DNA of 64,000 nt from an uncultured Paracoccaceae bacterium (GTDB lineage: Bacteria; Pseudomonadota; Alphaproteobacteria; Rhodobacterales; Rhodobacteraceae), in the NCBI GenBank assembly GCA_913062865.1, contig CAJXWO010000006.1, positions 1 through 64,000 on the forward strand, written 5' to 3'. Below, in pieces: positions 21,201-28,718 of this stretch (position 1 is the first letter of the stretch; the number at the start of each line of letters is the position of its first letter). The notes under the pieces are model-generated. The model was not told where the DNA came from. It did no database searches and worked only from the letters and a program-made list of their open reading frames with translations. Made by a program: the position numbers and the translations under genes.

Positions 21201-21350
21201 GAAGCCGGTCACGTTAGGGGGTGGCAGCAGGATGCAGAAGGTCTCGTCCCGGCTGGCATTGGCGCCGGCCTTGAAGGCGTCGTTCTTTTCCCATTCCGCG
21301 TAGATCCGCGGCTCTGCCGTGGCGGCGTCGAAGGTCTTTTCCATGGCCAT
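18222..21350 (-). CDS. valS: Valine--tRNA ligase
   Basis: Class Ia aminoacyl-tRNA synthetase of 1042 residues that charges tRNA-Val. The HIGH motif appears as LHAGHAF in [19 protein letters not shown] (residues about 43-61), KMSKS as KMSKT ([15 protein letters not shown]). The editing CP1 domain lies between ([32 protein letters not shown]). The C-terminus (about 970-1042) is a coiled coil ([20 protein letters not shown]), as in bacterial-type ValRS. The start codon is placed at MAMEKTFD because upstream codons are not conserved-looking. Length is above the E. coli enzyme (951), mostly from inserts in CP1. Confidence 0.97.
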
Positions 21351-21470
21351 GGGCTGTGCTTTCCGTCCTGATCCCGAGGTTCCGCGTTGATCTAACGAAT
21401 GCGCGCGGTGAGGGAAAGGGCCGGTGGCGCGCTGACCCGGGCTTGGCACATGGGGCAGGCGTCGTTTTCA

Positions 21471-21565
21471 GGTATTTTTTCCAAGAAGAAGGGACGGGTC
21501 GCGCCCCACGCGAACGGCCTGTCTGTTGCGCGCGGCGCTGCTGTCTTCTTCTTGGCCCAAATACC
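21471..21565. repeat. Inverted pair of a dispersed GTATTT...AAGAAGAAG repeat
   Basis: The 22 bases at 21471-21492 (GGTATTTTTTCC then AAGAAGAAGG) have a near-perfect inverted copy at 21545-21565 (CTTCTTCTTGG then CCCAAATACC). The 11-base arms CCAAGAAGAAG and CTTCTTCTTGG are exact complements, so the 95-base unit could fold into a long hairpin. Variants of the same motif occur at 31806-31827 and 45146-45168. It fills much of the 250-base gap upstream of valS. Confidence 0.6.
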
Positions 21566-21601
21566 TACGGCGCCGCGGGTCCGCCTGCGCCACGCCGGGG
21601 C

Positions 21602-22729
21602 CTACTGGTTCATCGCGTAGAGGTAGCCCACCCCGGCCGCCACGATTGCGCCTAGGATCATCGCGATCGCGATCTTCCAAGCGGACCAGGGGCGTTCGCC
21701 CTGCACCCGGCCCGTGCGGCCGTTGACGACGAAGCGGTAGGTTTCGCCGCGATACTTGTAGGCGGCCATCCAGACGGGCAGCAGGATATGCTTGAACGTC
21801 ACGTCCGAGACCTGTGTGTCGACCCGGTGGATACGTTGCCGGTCGCCGCCGATGTCGAATTTCACGTCGCGCTCGATCACCCGGTCCATCTGCTGCCGGG
21901 CATCGACGAAGCCCTCGTCTAGGTTGACGGTATAGGCCTCGGCCCGGAACCCGGCGAGGTACTGCGGCTGGTAGGGTTCCAGCGCGGCGAGGTCCCAAGG
22001 CTCCAGCGCCTCGGTGTAGCTGCGCGGCAGCGAGCGGGAGGCCAGCACGAGCACGTCGTCGAAGAACCGCGTCACCCGGCCCGAGGCCGACCGCCAGCGG
22101 ACCTTCTGAACGCGGATCGTCTGGCGCTTGCCGTTGCGGGTGACGGTGCGGCTTTCGTAGTAGACGGTGCCGCGTTCGCCCCGGTAGCTCGATTTCGTGT
22201 CGGCATCGAAGGTCCAGTAGGGGACGTAGATGCCCTCCATCTTTCGGCCCTTGCGGGCGTAGTCCTGCAGGCCGTTGGGTGCGAACCAGAGCCGCCCCAG
22301 CCAGTCGATCATCGCCTTGTGTGCGGCGCGTTCATCCAGTGCGAAGGGCAGCACGCCCTTGGGCTTGATATGCCGGTGGGTGCCGGTGTCCGTGACCACC
22401 GGGGTGGCGCAGAACGGGCACTCGGCGGCGTGGGTGGCCGGGTCGAATTCGACCTGTGCCGCGCAATTGGGGCAGGTGGTGACCCGGGTCTCTTCCATCT
22501 CGGCCTGGGGCAGGAGGCCGTCGAGGGCCGATTTGAAATCGAGCTCGTTGATGCCGCCGGTCCAGGGGCCGGTCTGGCCGATCTCTTCGGAATGGCCGCA
22601 ATGGTCGCAGACAAGCTGCCCCGCCTGCGGGTCGAAGCGGTAATCGGCCCCGCATTGGTCGCAGGGAAAGCGGTGTTCTTCGACGGGGGTGGCTGTGTCG
22701 GGGTCCAGCACGGACAGTGCCTCCGGCAA
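21602..22729 (-). CDS. Zinc-ribbon membrane protein (TFIIB-type fingers, YdjG-like)
   Basis: Protein of 375 residues with two zinc ribbons and one C-terminal transmembrane helix. Ribbon 1 is CDQCGADYRFDPQAGQLVCDHCG (Cys pairs near residues 23-26 and 41-44), ribbon 2 is CPNCAAQVEFDPATHAAECPFC (about 85-106). The middle (130-330) is a beta-rich domain with YVPYWTFDADTKSSYRGERGT and LPVWMAAYKYRGETYRFVVNGRTG. The C-terminus (about 350-372, IAIAMILGAIVAAGVGYLYAM) is the membrane anchor. Similar proteins are sometimes mislabelled as primosomal protein N'; no helicase motif is present. The architecture resembles B. subtilis YdjG, which partners an SPFH protein in membrane stress; here the SPFH gene is two genes upstream in the same operon. 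Last gene of the operon. Confidence 0.8.
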   Translation of the reverse strand: MPEALSVLDPDTATPVEEHRFPCDQCGADYRFDPQAGQLVCDHCGHSEEIGQTGPWTGGINELDFKSALDGLLPQAEMEETRVTTCPNCAAQVEFDPATHAAECPFCATPVVTDTGTHRHIKPKGVLPFALDERAAHKAMIDWLGRLWFAPNGLQDYARKGRKMEGIYVPYWTFDADTKSSYRGERGTVYYESRTVTRNGKRQTIRVQKVRWRSASGRVTRFFDDVLVLASRSLPRSYTEALEPWDLAALEPYQPQYLAGFRAEAYTVNLDEGFVDARQQMDRVIERDVKFDIGGDRQRIHRVDTQVSDVTFKHILLPVWMAAYKYRGETYRFVVNGRTGRVQGERPWSAWKIAIAMILGAIVAAGVGYLYAMNQ

Positions 22730-22739
22730 TTGGGCGCGG

Positions 22740-23333
22740 TCAGAGATAGCGGTGCAAAGCCCTTGGCACCATGATCCTGAGCGCGTTGTCCTTCAAGCGG
22801 AAATGTCGCCATATGTGAAAGCCCGCATGCACCAGTGCGATTGCGGCCAGAAGGTAGAACTCTATCGTGTGGACAAGGCCCGCAATCTCGTTGGCCTTCG
22901 GCAGGTTAAGCGCGGGCGCGATGGGCAGAACGCCGCCTGCCTTGAGCACGGTGGCCGAGGTCAGGCCCAGCAGAAAGCCCGTGAGCGCCACGCCGAAGAG
23001 CCCCCAGATCAGCGTCACATGCAGCGCCCGGTGCAGGCGGCGGCCCCATGGCGGCAGTTTCGGACCGGGGCGCCCGGCGAGCCCACGGCGCAGGTAGTCG
23101 GCGGTCCAGAGAAGCGCGAGGGTGACGAAGATCAGCCCCAGGACGGAATGGACCTGAAACAAGGTCTGACCGCCAAGGCGCAAGACGATCTCGGGCGTCA
23201 TGAATGTGAACCAGACCATCAGCGGGACCAAGGACCAGTGCAGCCATTTGAGCGCGGTGCGCCGGTGGGGCAGGCGCGCGGTCAGGGCATCGCGAACGGT
23301 CGGTTGCTTGCTGTGGTCCATGGTCTCAGACAC
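22740..23333 (-). CDS. Cytochrome b561 family protein
   Basis: Membrane di-haem cytochrome of about 197 residues with four predicted transmembrane helices: WLHWSLVPLMVWFTFM, FQVHSVLGLIFVTLALLW, LHVTLIWGLFGVALTGFLLG and EFYLLAAIALVHAGFHIW. Candidate haem ligands are in LHW, VHS, LHRALH, VHT and HAGFH, matching the b561/Ni-hydrogenase cytochrome b pattern. It should pass electrons between quinones and a periplasmic partner. The first codon is either GTG at 23333 or ATG at 23321; no strong ribosome site decides. It sits between the SPFH and zinc-ribbon genes, 10 bases from the latter, so a role in the same membrane process is inferred. Confidence 0.85.
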   Translation of the reverse strand: MSETMDHSKQPTVRDALTARLPHRRTALKWLHWSLVPLMVWFTFMTPEIVLRLGGQTLFQVHSVLGLIFVTLALLWTADYLRRGLAGRPGPKLPPWGRRLHRALHVTLIWGLFGVALTGFLLGLTSATVLKAGGVLPIAPALNLPKANEIAGLVHTIEFYLLAAIALVHAGFHIWRHFRLKDNALRIMVPRALHRYL

Positions 23334-23341
23334 GCCGTGTC

Positions 23342-23366
23342 CCGGGGCAGAGTTTCACTGCCCCGG
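23342..23366. other. Stem-loop between SPFH and cytochrome b561 genes
   Basis: CCGGGGCAG (23342-23350), loop AGTTTCA, CTGCCCCGG (23358-23366): a perfect 9-bp stem without a T-run. It lies in the only gap above 20 bases within this operon (82 bases) and may attenuate or stabilise mRNA segments, setting the downstream pair apart from the four upstream genes. Confidence 0.5.
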
Positions 23367-23415
23367 AGATAGCGCGCAGGGAGGCCGGGCAAGCGCCCGG
23401 AGGTGGCACGCGGTC

Positions 23416-24540
23416 TCAACTGCCCGGCGGGGGCGGCGGCAGGATTGTGAAAAGCTGCGCCAGTTCCGCCACGTCCTCGGCTCGAAGCCAGCCATCCTGC
23501 CCGGCGGTCCAGACAAAGGTGTCGCGGGTGATCTCACCGCCCTGGGCCATGCGGCCCATATCGGCCTTGGAAAAGGGGCCCTTGGTCTCGCCGTTCTCGG
23601 CGATGTGCCAGACATGCTCCACGGGCGGCGGGGGCGGTGTGGGCGACGCTGCACGCGCCGGCGTTTGCGCCGCGCCGCCCCAGGGGCCCTGGCCCGCCAT
23701 CTGGTTCGCCATCGCCATCCCCATTCCCATGCCGAGACCCGCGCCCATGCCGCCGCCGCCATTGGGGTTCTTGGCCGCCGCGGTCATCGCCTCGGCCGCG
23801 GAATACTGGGTGTACTTGCCCAGATCGCCCGCGATGCCCATCGACGTGCGCTTGTCCAGCGCCTCTTCGACCGCGGGCGGCAGCGAGATGTTCTCGATAT
23901 AAAGCTCGGGCATGGTCAGCCCGTATTCGGCCAGCGTGCCCGAGATCTCGGCCGCGACGAGCTTGCCCAGATCGGCGGTGTTCGCTGCCATGTCGAGCAC
24001 CGGAATGCCCGAGCCCGCCAGCACGCGGCTGAATTCCTGCACGATGATGTTGCGGATCTGGAAGCTGATCTCGTCCATCGTGAATTCGCCGTCGGTGCCG
24101 ACGATTTCCGACAGGAAGCGCGCAGGGTCGGTCACGCGGATCGTATAGGTGCCGAAGGCGCGAATGCGGGTCGGCCCGAATTCCGGGTCGCGCAGCATCA
24201 CCGGGTTCTTGGTGCCCCATTTCAGATCGCTGAAACGGGTGGTGTTGACGAAATAGATCTCGGACTTGAAGGGCGATTTGAAGCCGTGATCCCAATGCTG
24301 AAGCGAGGTCATCACCGGCATGTTGTTGGTCTCGAGCATGTAGAGGCCCGGGGTGAACACATCGGCCAGCTGGCCTTCGTGGACGAAAACAGCCGCCTGG
24401 CCCTCGCGCACGGTCAGCTTGGCGCCGTACTTGATCTCGTGGCCCTCGCGCTCGAACCGCCAGACCATGGTGTCACGGGTGTCGTCCACCCAGTGGATCA
24501 CGTCGATGAACTGGCCGCTCAGGAAATCGAAAATGCCCAT
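23416..24540 (-). CDS. SPFH domain protein with C-terminal GYF-like domain (YdjI/virion-core type)
   Basis: Protein of 374 residues of the SPFH (band 7) superfamily, the branch annotated as 'virion core protein'. Residues 1-250 hold the SPFH core (DTMVWRFEREGHEIKYGAKLTVREGQAAVFVHEGQ, FGTYTIRVTDPARFLSEIVG, ISLPPAVEEALDKRTSMG). A Gly/Met-rich linker follows (about 262-285), then a proline stretch, then a GYF_2-like domain (about 312-365: VWHIAENGETKGPFSKADMGRMAQGG). No transmembrane helix is seen, so membrane contact probably needs a partner such as the zinc-ribbon membrane protein encoded downstream, as YdjI needs YdjG in B. subtilis. Predicted role: membrane-stress scaffold. Confidence 0.85.
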   Translation of the reverse strand: MGIFDFLSGQFIDVIHWVDDTRDTMVWRFEREGHEIKYGAKLTVREGQAAVFVHEGQLADVFTPGLYMLETNNMPVMTSLQHWDHGFKSPFKSEIYFVNTTRFSDLKWGTKNPVMLRDPEFGPTRIRAFGTYTIRVTDPARFLSEIVGTDGEFTMDEISFQIRNIIVQEFSRVLAGSGIPVLDMAANTADLGKLVAAEISGTLAEYGLTMPELYIENISLPPAVEEALDKRTSMGIAGDLGKYTQYSAAEAMTAAAKNPNGGGGMGAGLGMGMGMAMANQMAGQGPWGGAAQTPARAASPTPPPPPVEHVWHIAENGETKGPFSKADMGRMAQGGEITRDTFVWTAGQDGWLRAEDVAELAQLFTILPPPPPGS

Positions 24541-24557
24541 GGTCGGGTCTCCTTGGT

Positions 24558-25532
24558 CTAGCTTTCTCCGCCCGTCAGCTCGCGCGCGATCTGGCGCAGG
24601 ATGGGGCGGGCTTCGTCGGCGCTCATGCCCGCGCGCAGGCGCGGGTCGTAGAGCATGGTCAACAGCATCTCGTCATGGGTGGTCAAGAGCGCGAATTCGT
24701 CGTCGTCGTTGAAGATCGACGGGCGTGCAAAGGGGCTGTCATTGGCCAGCCCCAGGCCCTGGGCCAGTTCCTCGTGATAGCAGGACTGACGGGTGAGGTC
24801 GGGATGCTCTGCCCGCACGAGCGCGATGGCGCGGGTGTAGCTCGACCCGCCCGCCTCGTCGGTCAGCGCGACCACCAGGCAATGGATCGACCGGGGCAGC
24901 GTGCGGAAGATGTCGAGCGCCCGGTCGCTGATGCGCGGGGCGATCTGGCGGATGCGGCCGGGCAGCGCGGGGCGGTCATCTTCGCCCATGACGAAGACAT
25001 GGAAATTCGCGGGCCCGCTTCCCACGCTGATCGGGTGCCCGGTCAGACGGGCAAGGCGCCGGGCGTAGAGGATCACCTCGTTGCGATCGGTGGTGCGGAT
25101 CGCCGGGTCGACCGACGCGCCGAATTCCACGCTCATGCGCACGGGCGTCTCCCAACGCTTGAGACGCCCCTGGCGGCCGTCCGACGGCGTCAGCGTGCCG
25201 TCGCGCTGGTACTCGTCGTAGAACGCGATCCGCTCGAAATTGCGCAGGAGATCGGTATCGGTGAAGGGCGTGTCCGGCCCGCCGCCATCGGTTCGCAAGA
25301 GTCCCCGCGCCAGAAGATCGGCCTGCACCTGCCGATAGTAGCGCGCCAGATCCGCGCTTTCCTCGGTCACGACGGGGGCGGCGGCGGGACGTTCGGCGGG
25401 ACGGGCGTTGGGCGCCGTGCCGACTGTGGGCGCCGAGCCCGTGTCGTCGGGGGGCGGCATGTCGCACGCCGCAAGGGCGGCGGCACAGACCACCGCCCCG
25501 AGCCAGGACACTCTGCGCCCGCGCGACGGCAC
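24558..25532 (-). CDS. DUF2927 lipoprotein (putative metallopeptidase-like)
   Basis: Exported lipoprotein of 324 residues. Lipobox LAAC with Cys23 follows a short basic leader and a hydrophobic core. A Pro/Ala-rich linker (25-60) leads to the DUF2927 domain. The region SCYHEELAQGLGLANDSP (about 245-262) with THDEMLLTMLYDPRLRAGM contains an HEExxQ pattern like a degenerate zinc-peptidase helix; whether it is catalytic is unknown. The first codon is GTG at 25532, five bases after the telA stop, suggesting coupling. It would sit in the periplasm, facing the envelope side of the TelA/SPFH system. Confidence 0.82.
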   Translation of the reverse strand: MPSRGRRVSWLGAVVCAAALAACDMPPPDDTGSAPTVGTAPNARPAERPAAAPVVTEESADLARYYRQVQADLLARGLLRTDGGGPDTPFTDTDLLRNFERIAFYDEYQRDGTLTPSDGRQGRLKRWETPVRMSVEFGASVDPAIRTTDRNEVILYARRLARLTGHPISVGSGPANFHVFVMGEDDRPALPGRIRQIAPRISDRALDIFRTLPRSIHCLVVALTDEAGGSSYTRAIALVRAEHPDLTRQSCYHEELAQGLGLANDSPFARPSIFNDDDEFALLTTHDEMLLTMLYDPRLRAGMSADEARPILRQIARELTGGES

Positions 25533-25537
25533 CGCGG

Positions 25538-26731
25538 TCAGGCCTGCGGGACCGACTGGCCCATATTCTCGCCCGAGCCGGTCTTGCGTGCCTTGGCCGA
25601 GGCCAGCGTGTCGCGCAGCTCGGTCTCCATCTTCTTGAGTTCCTCCTCGGCGGCGGCACGGCGGGCCTTGCCCTCGTCCGCGATCTGGAGGCTTTCCTCG
25701 ATGGTGCCGATCAGGTCGGCATTGGCCTGCTTTACCGCTTCGATGTCGAAGACGCCGCGTTCCATCTCTTCGCGGATCATCTTGTTGCTGTCGCGCAGGT
25801 TCTTGGCGTTCGCGGTCAGCAGCTCGTTGGTCAGGTCATTGGCGTCGCGCACGGCGGCGGCGGCCTGGGCCGAGCGCTGGATGGTCACGGCCTGGGCCAG
25901 CTGGGTTTCCCAAAGCGGCACGGTGTTCACCAGCGTCGAGTTGATCTTGGTGACCAGGCTCTTGTCGTTTTCCTGCACCAGCCGGATCGAGGGCAGCGAC
26001 TGCATGGTGACCTGGCGGGTGAGCTTGAGGTCATGGACCCGGCGTTCCAAGTCGTCGCGCGCGGCGCGCAGATCGCGCAGTTCCTGCGCCTTCATCACCT
26101 GTTCACCCTCGGGCGCTGCCTGCACCTCGGCCTCCTTGGCGGGGATGTCCTTGCTGTCGAGCTCTTCGAGCTTTTCCTCGCCCGCCGCGATGTAGAGCGC
26201 CAGCTCGTCATAGAACTGCAGCGTCTTTTCGTAGAGCATGTCGAGCGACTTGATGTCCTTGAGCAGCGTGTGCTCGTGCTTGAGCAGGTCGTCGGTGATC
26301 CGGTCGATCTGGCCCTGCACCTCTTCGAAGCGGGCGGTGAACTTGGCGAAGGGCGCGGCGCGGCCCAGAAGCTTTTCCCACCAGGTGCGTTCGCGGCGCA
26401 CGTCGAGCTCGGAGACGGAAAAGCCGCGGATCGTGGTGACGATGCCGCGCAGGCTGTCGCCCGCCGGGCCCACATCCTTGTTGCGCACGCCCTGAAGCAT
26501 GGACTGGCTGATTTCCTGCAATTCGGCCTGTGCGCCCGAGCCAAAGGCGACGATCGAATTTGTGTCGCCCATGTCGATCTCGTTCATGCGCGAGCGGATT
26601 TCCGAGCTCACCGCCGGGTTGGCCTGTTTCATCGGCACGATCTCGGCCTTGGGTTCGGGCAACAGCACGGCGTTGACCTCTTCGACCATGGCCAAGGTTT
26701 CCTCGGCCTTCTTGCGGACATTCTCAGACAT
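25538..26731 (-). CDS. telA: TelA family toxic-anion resistance protein
   Basis: Cytoplasmic helical protein of 397 residues, family TelA/KlaA (PF05816). It is almost entirely coiled coil; recognisable stretches are WWEKLLGRAAPFAKFTARFEEVQGQIDRI, LDMLYEKTLQFYDELALYIAAGEEKLEEL, and QSLPSIRLVQENDKSLVTKINSTLVNTVPLWETQLAQAV, the conserved core. Plasmid TelA contributes to tellurite resistance, and chromosomal homologues belong to stress systems with Ter or XpaC proteins; the biochemical action is unknown. xpaC lies nine bases upstream. The name reflects family membership; tellurite resistance in this organism is not implied. Confidence 0.92.
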   Translation of the reverse strand: MSENVRKKAEETLAMVEEVNAVLLPEPKAEIVPMKQANPAVSSEIRSRMNEIDMGDTNSIVAFGSGAQAELQEISQSMLQGVRNKDVGPAGDSLRGIVTTIRGFSVSELDVRRERTWWEKLLGRAAPFAKFTARFEEVQGQIDRITDDLLKHEHTLLKDIKSLDMLYEKTLQFYDELALYIAAGEEKLEELDSKDIPAKEAEVQAAPEGEQVMKAQELRDLRAARDDLERRVHDLKLTRQVTMQSLPSIRLVQENDKSLVTKINSTLVNTVPLWETQLAQAVTIQRSAQAAAAVRDANDLTNELLTANAKNLRDSNKMIREEMERGVFDIEAVKQANADLIGTIEESLQIADEGKARRAAAEEELKKMETELRDTLASAKARKTGSGENMGQSVPQA

Positions 26732-26740
26732 TGACTTCCC

Positions 26741-27640
26741 TCACTCCAGGTTTTCCGGGCGGACGCCCTCGCGCTGCAGCCTGTCGCGCAGCACCTCTAT
26801 TTCGACATTCAGGTCGCCGCGATCCTCGATCATCAGCTGTCGGGTCTTGGCGTTGAAATTCTCTTCCAGGTCGGTCAGCAGCATCATGAAATCCGACCGC
26901 GCCTGCCGGTCGCAGGACCGGGCGTAGATGTCGGCGAACTTGATCGCGGCGTCCTTGGCACCCATGAGGTACACGCCCAGGTATTTGCGCGCGCCGGTCA
27001 GGTCGCGCGGATCGTTTTCCACCGTGCGCAGCATTTCGCGCACCTCGGCCTGGAAGCGTTCGACGCGGCCCTCGACCTGGCGGTCGCCAGCGCGGCGCAC
27101 GGCCTCCATCATGCCGCGCATATGCTCTTCGGCCTGGTCCACCACCCGTGCCACGCGGTCGGACTGGAATTGGTCGACGCCCTCCATGCCCTTGTTCTTG
27201 AGCGGGTCGATGCCGAAGGCGGTCACATGCAGCGCCATCGCCGCACCGCCCAGAAGGATCGGGGCCAGAAGGCCGGGTTCGTTCTTGTAGGCGGCCACGC
27301 CGACGCCCGCGCCGGTCAGGACGGTCGCCAGCATCTTGCGCGGCAGGGCCGGGCGGCGAGCGATCTTGCGCGCGTGAAAGGCGGCCTCGGCCCGCAGCCC
27401 ATCGCGCAGAAGCCAGGCGGCCAGCGTCAGAAGCGCCGCGGCCACCAGACCCAGCGTGAGCCCGATGGCGCCGTCCCCCAGCGACAAAAACACAAGAAGC
27501 GCGCCAGGGATGAACAGCACATTGCTGCGCGGTCCCACCGGGTCGACATTGGCATTGCGATAGCTGGATCTGGGCGCATCGCCCTGCGGATCGGGTCCGT
27601 TCCCGTCGGGGCTGTATTTCCCGCCAAAACGCTGGGCCAT
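26741..27640 (-). CDS. xpaC: XpaC-like membrane protein (5-bromo-4-chloroindolyl phosphate hydrolysis family)
   Basis: Membrane protein of 299 residues. Hydrophobic segments lie at about 41-78 (VLFIPGALLVFLSLGDGAIGLTLGLVAAALLTLAAWLL) and 103-143, followed by a helical cytoplasmic domain (150-299) with DPLKNKGMEGVDQFQSDRVARVVDQAEEHM. The family name comes from a Bacillus gene affecting X-phos hydrolysis and does not describe a proven enzyme. XpaC-TelA pairs are widespread, and the order here (xpaC then telA, 9-base gap) is the usual one, so the proteins probably act together at the inner membrane. Confidence 0.82.
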   Translation of the reverse strand: MAQRFGGKYSPDGNGPDPQGDAPRSSYRNANVDPVGPRSNVLFIPGALLVFLSLGDGAIGLTLGLVAAALLTLAAWLLRDGLRAEAAFHARKIARRPALPRKMLATVLTGAGVGVAAYKNEPGLLAPILLGGAAMALHVTAFGIDPLKNKGMEGVDQFQSDRVARVVDQAEEHMRGMMEAVRRAGDRQVEGRVERFQAEVREMLRTVENDPRDLTGARKYLGVYLMGAKDAAIKFADIYARSCDRQARSDFMMLLTDLEENFNAKTRQLMIEDRGDLNVEIEVLRDRLQREGVRPENLE

Positions 27641-27643
27641 GTC

Positions 27644-27733
27644 TCAGAGCCCCCCAAGCCAGCCCGTGGCGACGCCGAACAACAGGATGATCAGCGCCAC
27701 ATAGGCAATCTTGGAAATCGAACTCTGCGTCAT
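27644..27733 (-). CDS. Tiny transmembrane peptide (29 residues) at the head of the xpaC operon
   Basis: ATG at 27733 to TGA at 27644 encodes MTQSSISKIAYVALIILLFG then VATGWLGGL: a short polar/basic start followed by one hydrophobic helix. Its stop lies three bases before the xpaC start. A GGGGG tract precedes the ATG, a weak ribosome site. It could be a real single-pass microprotein of the envelope module or a leader peptide coupling translation to xpaC. No family is recognised. Confidence 0.5.
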   Translation of the reverse strand: MTQSSISKIAYVALIILLFGVATGWLGGL

Positions 27734-27887
27734 GACGCCCCCGCTGCAAGAAAGCTTCAACTCAGGCGATCGCCCCCGCCCTTGCTAGGGCCAAGCGGAG
27801 CCGCTACGGCCCGCGAAGCGGCAAACGCCACTGAAACCCGCATAGCGCAGAAAGACATGACAATGAAATGACGCCCTGCGGGGAAAA

Positions 27888-28718
27888 TCAGCGGCGGCGA
27901 CGCCTTACGGGGCGCGGTTTTCCCGGCTTGCCCGGTTTGCCTGGGCGCTTCGGACTGTCCGGTTCGGGCTCGGGGGCGGACAGGCCCAGCTGGTCGCGCA
28001 GCACACGCGGGCGCACCTCTTCCACCGCGCCGGGTTTCAGCTGGCCCAGCTGAAAGGGGCCATAGCTGAGCCGGATCAGGCGGTTGACGCTCAGGCCCAC
28101 CGCCTCCATCGCGCGGCGGATCTCGCGGTTCTTGCCTTCGCGCAGGCCCACGGTGGCCCAGGCATTGGCGCCCTGCTGGCGGTCAAGCGTGATCTGCATG
28201 GGCTGGAACGCCTCGCGGTCGATCACGATCCCCTCGCGCAGGGGGGCGAAGGTGTCGTCGCTGGGCGTGCCCTTGATCCGCACGCGGTATTTGCGCAGCC
28301 AGCCGGTCGAGGGCAGTTCGAGCTTGCGCTTGATCTCACCATCATTGGTCAGAAGCAGCAGGCCCTCGGAATTGAGGTCGAGCCGCCCGACGGTCATCAC
28401 GCGCGGCAGCCCCTCGGGCAGGTCGTCAAAGATGGTGGGCCGCCCTTGTTCGTCGCGCGTTGTGGTCACGAGGCCCCGGGGCTTGTGATACAGCCAGAGC
28501 CGCGGCGGTTCGGGCGCATTGAGCGGCTTGCCGTCTACGGTGATCTTGTCCGTGCCGGTGATGTTCAGTGCGGGGCTGTCGATCTTGCGGCCGTTTACGG
28601 TGACGCGGCCGGCTTCGATCATGCGTTCGGCCTCGCGGCGGCTGGCGACGCCCGCGCGGGCCAGCAACTTGGCGATGCGGTCACCCTTTGGGGTGTCCTT
28701 TGGGGTATCCTGTGTCAT
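27888..28718 (-). CDS. rluB: 23S rRNA pseudouridine synthase (RluB type)
   Basis: RsuA/RluB-family enzyme of 276 residues that isomerises a uridine in 23S rRNA. An S4 RNA-binding domain (residues about 14-60: RIAKLLARAGVASRREAERMIEAGRVTVNG) precedes the catalytic domain with the nucleophilic aspartate in VGRLDLNSEGLLLLTNDG. REGKNREIRRAMEAVGL is the conserved C-terminal motif. A basic Pro/Lys/Arg tail (GKPGKPRPVRRRRR) probably helps RNA binding. RluB is preferred over RluE/F by the overall sequence pattern; exact target uridine is inferred. Divergent from tadA, with 62 bases between the starts. Confidence 0.88.
   Translation of the reverse strand: MTQDTPKDTPKGDRIAKLLARAGVASRREAERMIEAGRVTVNGRKIDSPALNITGTDKITVDGKPLNAPEPPRLWLYHKPRGLVTTTRDEQGRPTIFDDLPEGLPRVMTVGRLDLNSEGLLLLTNDGEIKRKLELPSTGWLRKYRVRIKGTPSDDTFAPLREGIVIDREAFQPMQITLDRQQGANAWATVGLREGKNREIRRAMEAVGLSVNRLIRLSYGPFQLGQLKPGAVEEVRPRVLRDQLGLSAPEPEPDSPKRPGKPGKPGKPRPVRRRRR

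Follow-up and report, generated by a model that had tools for sequence, protein, structure and literature searches.

A YdjI/YdjG-type SPFH and zinc-ribbon pair encoded with XpaC and TelA across Rhodobacterales, beside a DUF2927 lipoprotein with a predicted matrixin fold

Among the defences of the bacterial envelope, the Psp response has been studied in depth. In the pspA-ydjGHI system of Bacillus subtilis, YdjI is described as depending on YdjG and YdjH for its membrane localisation, as recruiting PspA and as being needed for PspA foci (PMC8581546), and YdjG as combining a transmembrane (TM) segment with a pair of zinc ribbons and one more domain (PMC11237479). Another described arrangement is the XpaC-TelA pair of Listeria (lmo1966-lmo1967), in which disruption of lmo1967, encoding TelA, is reported to raise susceptibility to nisin 4-fold and to tellurite 2-fold (PMC12791056). 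TelA has also been assigned to sub-membrane structures (PMC7824862), and a Paracoccus TelA was reported as an expressed protein in a plastic biofilm (PMC11962581). Here we analysed a gene cluster in which these partner sets lie together, within a 64,000-nucleotide (nt) stretch of DNA from an uncultured Paracoccaceae bacterium (contig CAJXWO010000006.1, positions 1 to 64,000; the window). Its minus strand encodes, in order of transcription, a 29-residue protein, XpaC, TelA, a DUF2927 lipoprotein, an SPFH protein ending in a GYF domain, a cytochrome b561-like protein and a double zinc-ribbon protein (ZnR). The open-licence literature yielded no paper on the combination of TelA, XpaC and SPFH or on DUF2927, and the main text of PMC11237479 contains no occurrence of TelA, XpaC or SPFH. 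New here are the small protein, the histidine-less metzincin-like fold predicted for DUF2927, and the joining of a YdjI/YdjG-type pair to XpaC-TelA in a system kept across the order.

What the cluster shares with pspA-ydjGHI is an SPFH gene with a gene for a double zinc-ribbon TM protein behind it. In ZnR, the cysteines C23, C26, C41 and C44 and C86, C89, C104 and C107 are invariant (33/33 sequences), hydropathy places a TM segment at residues 348-374, and searches of solved structures returned only zinc-ribbon matches. ZnR matches at 2e-28 an Enterococcus protein whose gene lies between SPFH and TPM genes, an order (SPFH-ZnR-TPM) made of the same three gene kinds as YdjI, YdjG and YdjH; it is through this homologue and the published description, not through a direct alignment with YdjG, that ZnR is likened to YdjG. 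A ZnR relative stands directly after SPFH in 4/5 scored plasmid loci outside the order (Vibrio, Comamonas, Tsukamurella and Enterococcus; six were fetched), and in a Bacteroides locus, left out of the score, the zinc-ribbon gene lies two genes past SPFH. The union of XpaC-TelA with a YdjI/YdjG-type pair had been proposed in a sequence-only reading of this DNA, and the families and the ZnR homology bear it out. The operon differs from that of B. subtilis in having neither PspA nor TPM, with XpaC and TelA standing in their place, and in its SPFH protein, which ends in GYF whereas the B. subtilis protein is described with a C-terminal zinc ribbon (PMC11237479). Compared with the Listeria pair, the PF10112 and PF05816 families lie side by side in the same way, but here they are embedded with SPFH and ZnR, and the passages of PMC12791056 that describe the pair name no such partner. 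TelA is likewise shared with the Ter systems of the Aravind group (TerC, TerD, TerB, TelA). TerC, absent from the window's own cluster, adjoins that of a minority of loci, and the Pfam results for the six larger genes include no TerD/TerB (the genome was not searched for them), nor PspA.

Two observations on the plasmid loci stand on their own. On a Novosphingobium plasmid (L224:5001-9870), SPFH is followed by a different partner set (DUF4178, DUF4178, DUF350 and a polyamine aminopropyltransferase), and on a Vibrio coralliilyticus plasmid (L222:1-7154) SPFH-ZnR is divergent from neighbouring genes for TIR-domain and TRAFs-binding proteins, possibly a sign of a defence island.

The cluster is kept almost throughout the order, which we read as Rhodobacterales. 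TelA was matched in 194/196 genomes of the order, and in 25/212 genomes of a class sample that includes four of the order; SPFH was matched at a threshold of 1e-30 in 191/196 order genomes. Gene order was followed in two sets of loci with gene calls from in-house profiles: a TelA-anchored set of 64, made of the window and 63 order loci with listed TelA coordinates, nearly every one from a separate genus; and a DUF2927-anchored set of the 80 nearest named loci, almost all from Roseovarius, Shimia, Ruegeria, Salipiger and relatives. The sets overlap by at least four contigs. XpaC-TelA-DUF2927-SPFH-ZnR lie in this order on one strand in 57/64 loci of the first set, and the five genes are in order in 68/80 of the second, where a contig end cuts 9 of the 12 remaining. 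Taken singly, TelA is present in 64 (by construction) and 78 loci of the respective sets, XpaC in 63 and 76, SPFH in 62 and 77 and ZnR in 59 and 70, and DUF2927 in 62 of the first. A Paracoccus plasmid carries the same cluster. An arrangement found in 57/64 loci from almost as many genera is far beyond chance, and the neighbourhood survey called for by the sequence-only reading finds it kept far beyond close strains.

Gene losses and displacements point to the part of the cluster that works as a unit. Of 17 loci taken from the rest of the class, four (L048, L049, L051, L052) carry XpaC-TelA-SPFH-ZnR together, with no match to DUF2927, b561 or rluB/tadA. Within the order, these four genes normally flank DUF2927 on both sides; at L132 and L246 (genome G106), both sites inside contigs, DUF2927 comes directly after rluB and XpaC, TelA, SPFH and ZnR are gone from the locus (for L132 the loss is judged from the locus and not the whole genome). 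G011 (L096) has rluB-TerC-DUF2927 beside a contig end, and nothing in its whole genome matched TelA, SPFH or ZnR. Five of the 196 genomes have no SPFH match at the above threshold (G011, G081, G085, G106, G185), and both TelA-less genomes are among them (hypergeometric p 5.2e-4, or 8.1e-6 when G085, with a weak TelA match only, is counted as a third; kinship is ignored in both). Among nine genomes picked for odd loci, the six with SPFH all have ZnR and the three without SPFH have none. Genes also move together: the SPFH-ZnR pair sits on another contig in G124 (L248), it lies with two DUF2927 genes ~11-14 kb from TelA in G110 (L247), and ZnR and b561 remain together after ZnR has moved in G029 (L249). 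Because it recurs without DUF2927 in other orders, moves in pairs and is lost jointly around DUF2927, the cytoplasmic/inner-membrane quartet of XpaC, TelA, SPFH-GYF and ZnR appears to be the functional unit, and DUF2927 a retained neighbour with a role of its own.

The sequence-only reading had seen instead a single trans-envelope machine through cytoplasm, membrane and periplasm, with DUF2927 and the b561 cytochrome as parts of it. In its favour, almost every order locus has DUF2927 between TelA and SPFH, and b561, where present, lies between SPFH and ZnR and stays by a ZnR that has moved. We consider it quite improbable: DUF2927 remains at the same site in three genomes where the quartet is gone (L132, L246, L096) and occurs by itself in other lineages, and a b561-like protein occupies its slot in 18/64 and 18/80 loci, the occupants being partly unlike one another and some of them without the histidines.

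For the quartet, we propose an inner-membrane maintenance module, constitutive or stress-induced, that would resemble pspA-ydjGHI with TelA in place of PspA, a proposal on which we are evenly divided. PspA was found neither in the operon nor elsewhere in the window's 86%-complete genome, and was matched in 38/101 genomes of the order. Since the operon has no PspA and a match was found in only 38/101 genomes, we propose that its place may be taken by TelA, for which a coiled coil is predicted, together with the membrane-bound XpaC. XpaC has hydrophobic stretches at residues 40-79 and 123-144 and a soluble C-terminal part. The AlphaFold2 (AF2) model of TelA (26 sequences; mean predicted local distance difference test (pLDDT) 74.5) has helices at 127-205 and 208-294, and the protein has no TM segment. 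TelA as a look-alike of ESCRT-III/PspA was considered as a candidate and not adopted: Foldseek gave only generic coiled coils, the matches listed being axonemal proteins, BAR domains, ClyA/AhlC-type toxins and designed bundles, so that the likeness is neither supported nor excluded. Searches of solved structures gave nothing useful for TelA or DUF2927.

Several observations weigh against the maintenance module. No PspA or ESCRT-III entry is among the 50 Foldseek matches listed for TelA, the model confidence being modest; some Rhodobacterales have PspA as well, because of which a replacement would not be strict; Pfam finds no YdjH/TPM gene among the six; G081 and G185 keep TelA with no SPFH match; XpaC is missing and TelA kept at locus L009 and in Paracoccus ferrooxidans (L226); and some of the gene order is simply inherited, as its synteny with rluB/tadA shows. 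Carried to its end, the last point would make the whole cluster an old neighbourhood kept by descent beside rluB/tadA, with unrelated gene functions. Upstream, rluB and tadA are indeed kept in 53 and 51 of the 64 loci and in 65 each of the 80. Other orders, however, have the quartet with no rluB/tadA match beside it, and its four genes disappear jointly around DUF2927 and relocate two at a time; we consider descent by itself very improbable.

We infer the working of the maintenance module as follows. ZnR would be a membrane-anchored receptor at the cytoplasmic face and, to judge by homology, would hold SPFH at the membrane as YdjG does YdjI. SPFH protomers would assemble there, and their GYF domains may bind proline-rich stretches, either the linker or tail of a neighbouring protomer or the N-terminus of some ZnR proteins (PPP occurs in 38/133 ZnR N-termini). 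Such self-assembly through GYF and proline runs is plausible because GYF domains bind proline-rich peptides and the runs are near-universal here, with PPP before the GYF tryptophan in 142/153 SPFH proteins and within the last 15 residues in 149/153; searches of solved structures matched SPFH only to a gliding-motility protein, in the GYF region. The resulting platform would recruit or chaperone the coiled-coil TelA, tethered by XpaC and its 29-residue companion, into a sub-membrane scaffold. This scaffold would limit leakage and damage from tellurite, cationic peptides and similar insults, the phenotypes being those published for TelA relatives. DUF2927 would act separately as a lipoprotein on the periplasmic side, its conserved E/Q/N/D site binding a substrate without catalysis or using a metal bound by oxygen ligands; that it shares the operon suggests regulation in common with the other genes and not membership of their complex. 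Many Rhodobacterales seem to be without PspA, and if the proposal is true, the near-universal SPFH/ZnR/TelA/XpaC module is what they use in its stead, and the long-puzzling tellurite gene telA becomes tied to membrane maintenance.

TerC bears on a different function for the same genes. It lies between rluB and xpaC, just upstream of xpaC, in 11/64 and 12/80 loci (PF03741 3.2e-36; for example L006:6943-7794), and in G011 DUF2927 comes directly after it. The TerC proteins MeeF and MeeY are described as metalating exported enzymes (PMC12096827), and a review lists R. sphaeroides telA as a tellurite-resistance element (PMC6955997). The cluster could then be a tellurite or metal module in which TelA-XpaC, with TerC where there is one, handle metal or oxyanion stress on a scaffold of SPFH and ZnR, and in which exported proteins, DUF2927 or others, receive Mn or another metal through TerC. 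We find this unlikely. Most loci, and the window's own cluster, have no TerC; rare exposure to tellurite is an unlikely sole reason, because the order keeps TelA almost universally; and the reported effect of TelA disruption in Listeria is larger for nisin than for tellurite (PMC12791056).

The retained neighbour, DUF2927, has Cys23 in 62/62 order sequences, and its AF2 model (56 sequences; pLDDT 86.3) predicts a matrixin (metzincin) fold for residues 98-298, as in MMPs and karilysin. The top Foldseek match is MMP-1 (prob 1.00, E 3.7e-3) and the best matches are matrixins; VIA-align superposes 147 residues on matrilysin's 166 (Z 10.7, root-mean-square deviation 2.9), and all 50 matches listed are matrixins. 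Matrixins carry the zinc motif HExxHxxGxxH and a Met-turn methionine. DUF2927 differs in both respects: the zinc-binding histidine motif is absent, E-E-x-x-Q-x-x-G-x-x-N-D standing instead on the helix that bears HExxH in matrixins, and the Met-turn position is Ile273 in the window and I, V, L or M in DUF2927 of other groups (Met in L098 and L099, in our own alignment). By our reading of register and helix ends, E254/E255/Q258/N264 would correspond to H/E/H/H; the HEExxQ picked out from the letters is HEELAQ, residues 253-258. In hhalign, DUF2927 had no significant similarity to a set of 15 bacterial matrixin-type sequences (probability 0.1%), so the fold is predicted from the model and carries no claim of common descent with matrixins; hhalign nevertheless paired EELAQGLGL with the EIGHSLGL region. 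E254, E255, Q258, G261, N264 and D265 are each kept in 62/62 order loci, and DUF2927 proteins outside the order keep the site residues, with a single listed sequence differing at N264. Since conservation this strict is not drift, we infer that the site binds something, either as a pseudo-protease or through use of another metal. If true, DUF2927 is a family-wide metzincin-like fold that has given up the zinc-binding histidines and kept a strictly conserved site.

DUF2927 was matched in 51/299 genomes of a phylum sample. In 12 loci outside the order's cluster (L098-L108 and the own paralog L097), its neighbours are mostly unrelated and no partner is common to them; an ABC operon with a solute-binding protein recurs at L102 and L103, and a uroporphyrinogen decarboxylase gene at L101 and L108 (Pfam was run on one locus of either pair). 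A second DUF2927 protein, in a larger open frame, lies at G000:C15:47142-47741 (L003, L097), and a paralog occurs in most order genomes listed.

The six genes of the sequence-only reading are all real, lie where it had put them and have a Pfam match each, but a seventh was overlooked: a 29-codon open reading frame (ORF) with one hydrophobic stretch, starting at 27733, exactly where that reading had set the end of the cluster. Under a rule requiring a hydrophobic small ORF that ends at most 60 nt from the start region of XpaC, it is found ahead of xpaC in 129/139 order and named loci having XpaC (129/145 including class loci), in 0/6 of the class loci outside the order that have XpaC, and in 43/2,580 random windows from the same loci, or 2/2,580 once its motif, present in 112/129 small ORFs, is added. 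The motif search was negative in the four XpaC-less loci examined (L009, L226, L132, L096). Differences per codon position are 0.35, 0.22 and 0.53. Median nonsynonymous (dN) and synonymous (dS) divergences are 0.36 and 1.13 (2,002/2,211 pairs of 67 sequences, the others without a defined value) and, in a second length class, 0.34 and 1.06 (647/741 pairs of 39 sequences); 18 of the 124 distinct sequences, from small length classes or without an anchor, were omitted from this count. By these measures, the small ORF has the pattern of a translated, selected ORF under purifying selection, of a size easily overlooked in annotation. In some loci it may extend further, with a second hydrophobic stretch.

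A bolder version of the proposal, which strikes us as doubtful, would make of these parts a PspA-independent membrane-repair machine in which an SPFH/ZnR receptor builds TelA-XpaC scaffolds under a 29-residue membrane peptide as regulator. DUF2927 would then found a class of matrixin-fold lipoproteins with the three zinc histidines swapped for E, Q and N, be it a lineage-wide pseudo-protease or an enzyme with an oxygen-liganded metal, Mn or Ca for instance, perhaps supplied by TerC.

Table 1. Positions of the cluster's genes and of the DUF2927 site in the window
Feature	Coordinates	Strand	Basis or remark
Small single-TM protein, 29 aa, MTQSSISKIAYVALIILLFGVATGWLGGL	27644..27733	-	ORF 3 nt before xpaC
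XpaC family membrane protein, 299 aa	26741..27640	-	PF10112 (Halogen_Hydrol/XpaC) 4.6e-21
TelA, 397 aa, predicted long alpha-helical hairpin	25538..26731	-	PF05816 1.1e-108
DUF2927 lipoprotein, 324 aa, lipobox-type Cys23, predicted matrixin fold	24558..25532	-	PF11150 1.2e-62
DUF2927 site E254-E255-x-x-Q258-x-x-G261-x-x-N264-D265	24738..24773	-	in place of HExxHxxGxxH/D
SPFH protein, proline-rich linker, C-terminal GYF_2, proline-rich tail	23416..24540	-	Band_7_1 PF13421 1.5e-101; GYF_2 1.3e-21
Cytochrome b561-like membrane protein, optional member	22740..23333	-	PF01292 1.8e-10
Double zinc-ribbon protein (ZnR), C-terminal TM, YdjG-like	21602..22729	-	Zn ribbon Pfam 5.9e-9

Read along the transcript, the gaps are 9 nt (XpaC-TelA), 5 (TelA-DUF2927), 17 (DUF2927-SPFH), 82 (SPFH-b561) and 10 (b561-ZnR). 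A scan of 21300-28000 gave no sigma-70-like site; alphaproteobacterial extracytoplasmic-function and heat-shock promoters were not scanned for. The cluster comes after an rluB-type pseudouridine synthase gene and a divergent tadA-type deaminase gene, and the valyl-tRNA synthetase gene that follows it has a relative in none of the other loci compared. The b561-like protein has H32, H62, H105 and H169 in membrane helices; in family and histidines the window protein fits b561, read first as a putative di-haem cytochrome. The histidines vary in the other members, some being ~140 aa long without the second histidine column and others coming from a different b561 branch. We treat b561 as accessory because its slot is empty in most loci and filled partly by unlike proteins.

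Some lineages add genes of their own. Loci of Salipiger, Marivita and Roseivivax type have a further, diverged XpaC-like gene immediately before xpaC (L018:6960-7790, L024:6960-7844, L028:6895-7779; also L112, L114, L134, L135, L150, L160, L161 and others); that of L018, the one scanned, has no Pfam match at 0.01. Lineage-specific insertions (DUF6338, DUF4241) occur between DUF2927 and SPFH at L041:7332-7970 and L043:11054-11695. A Rhodobacterales-type cluster is also present in a record titled Enemella evansiae TN21-6 (L176), which we take to be an actinobacterial name; the assembly is probably mislabelled or contaminated.

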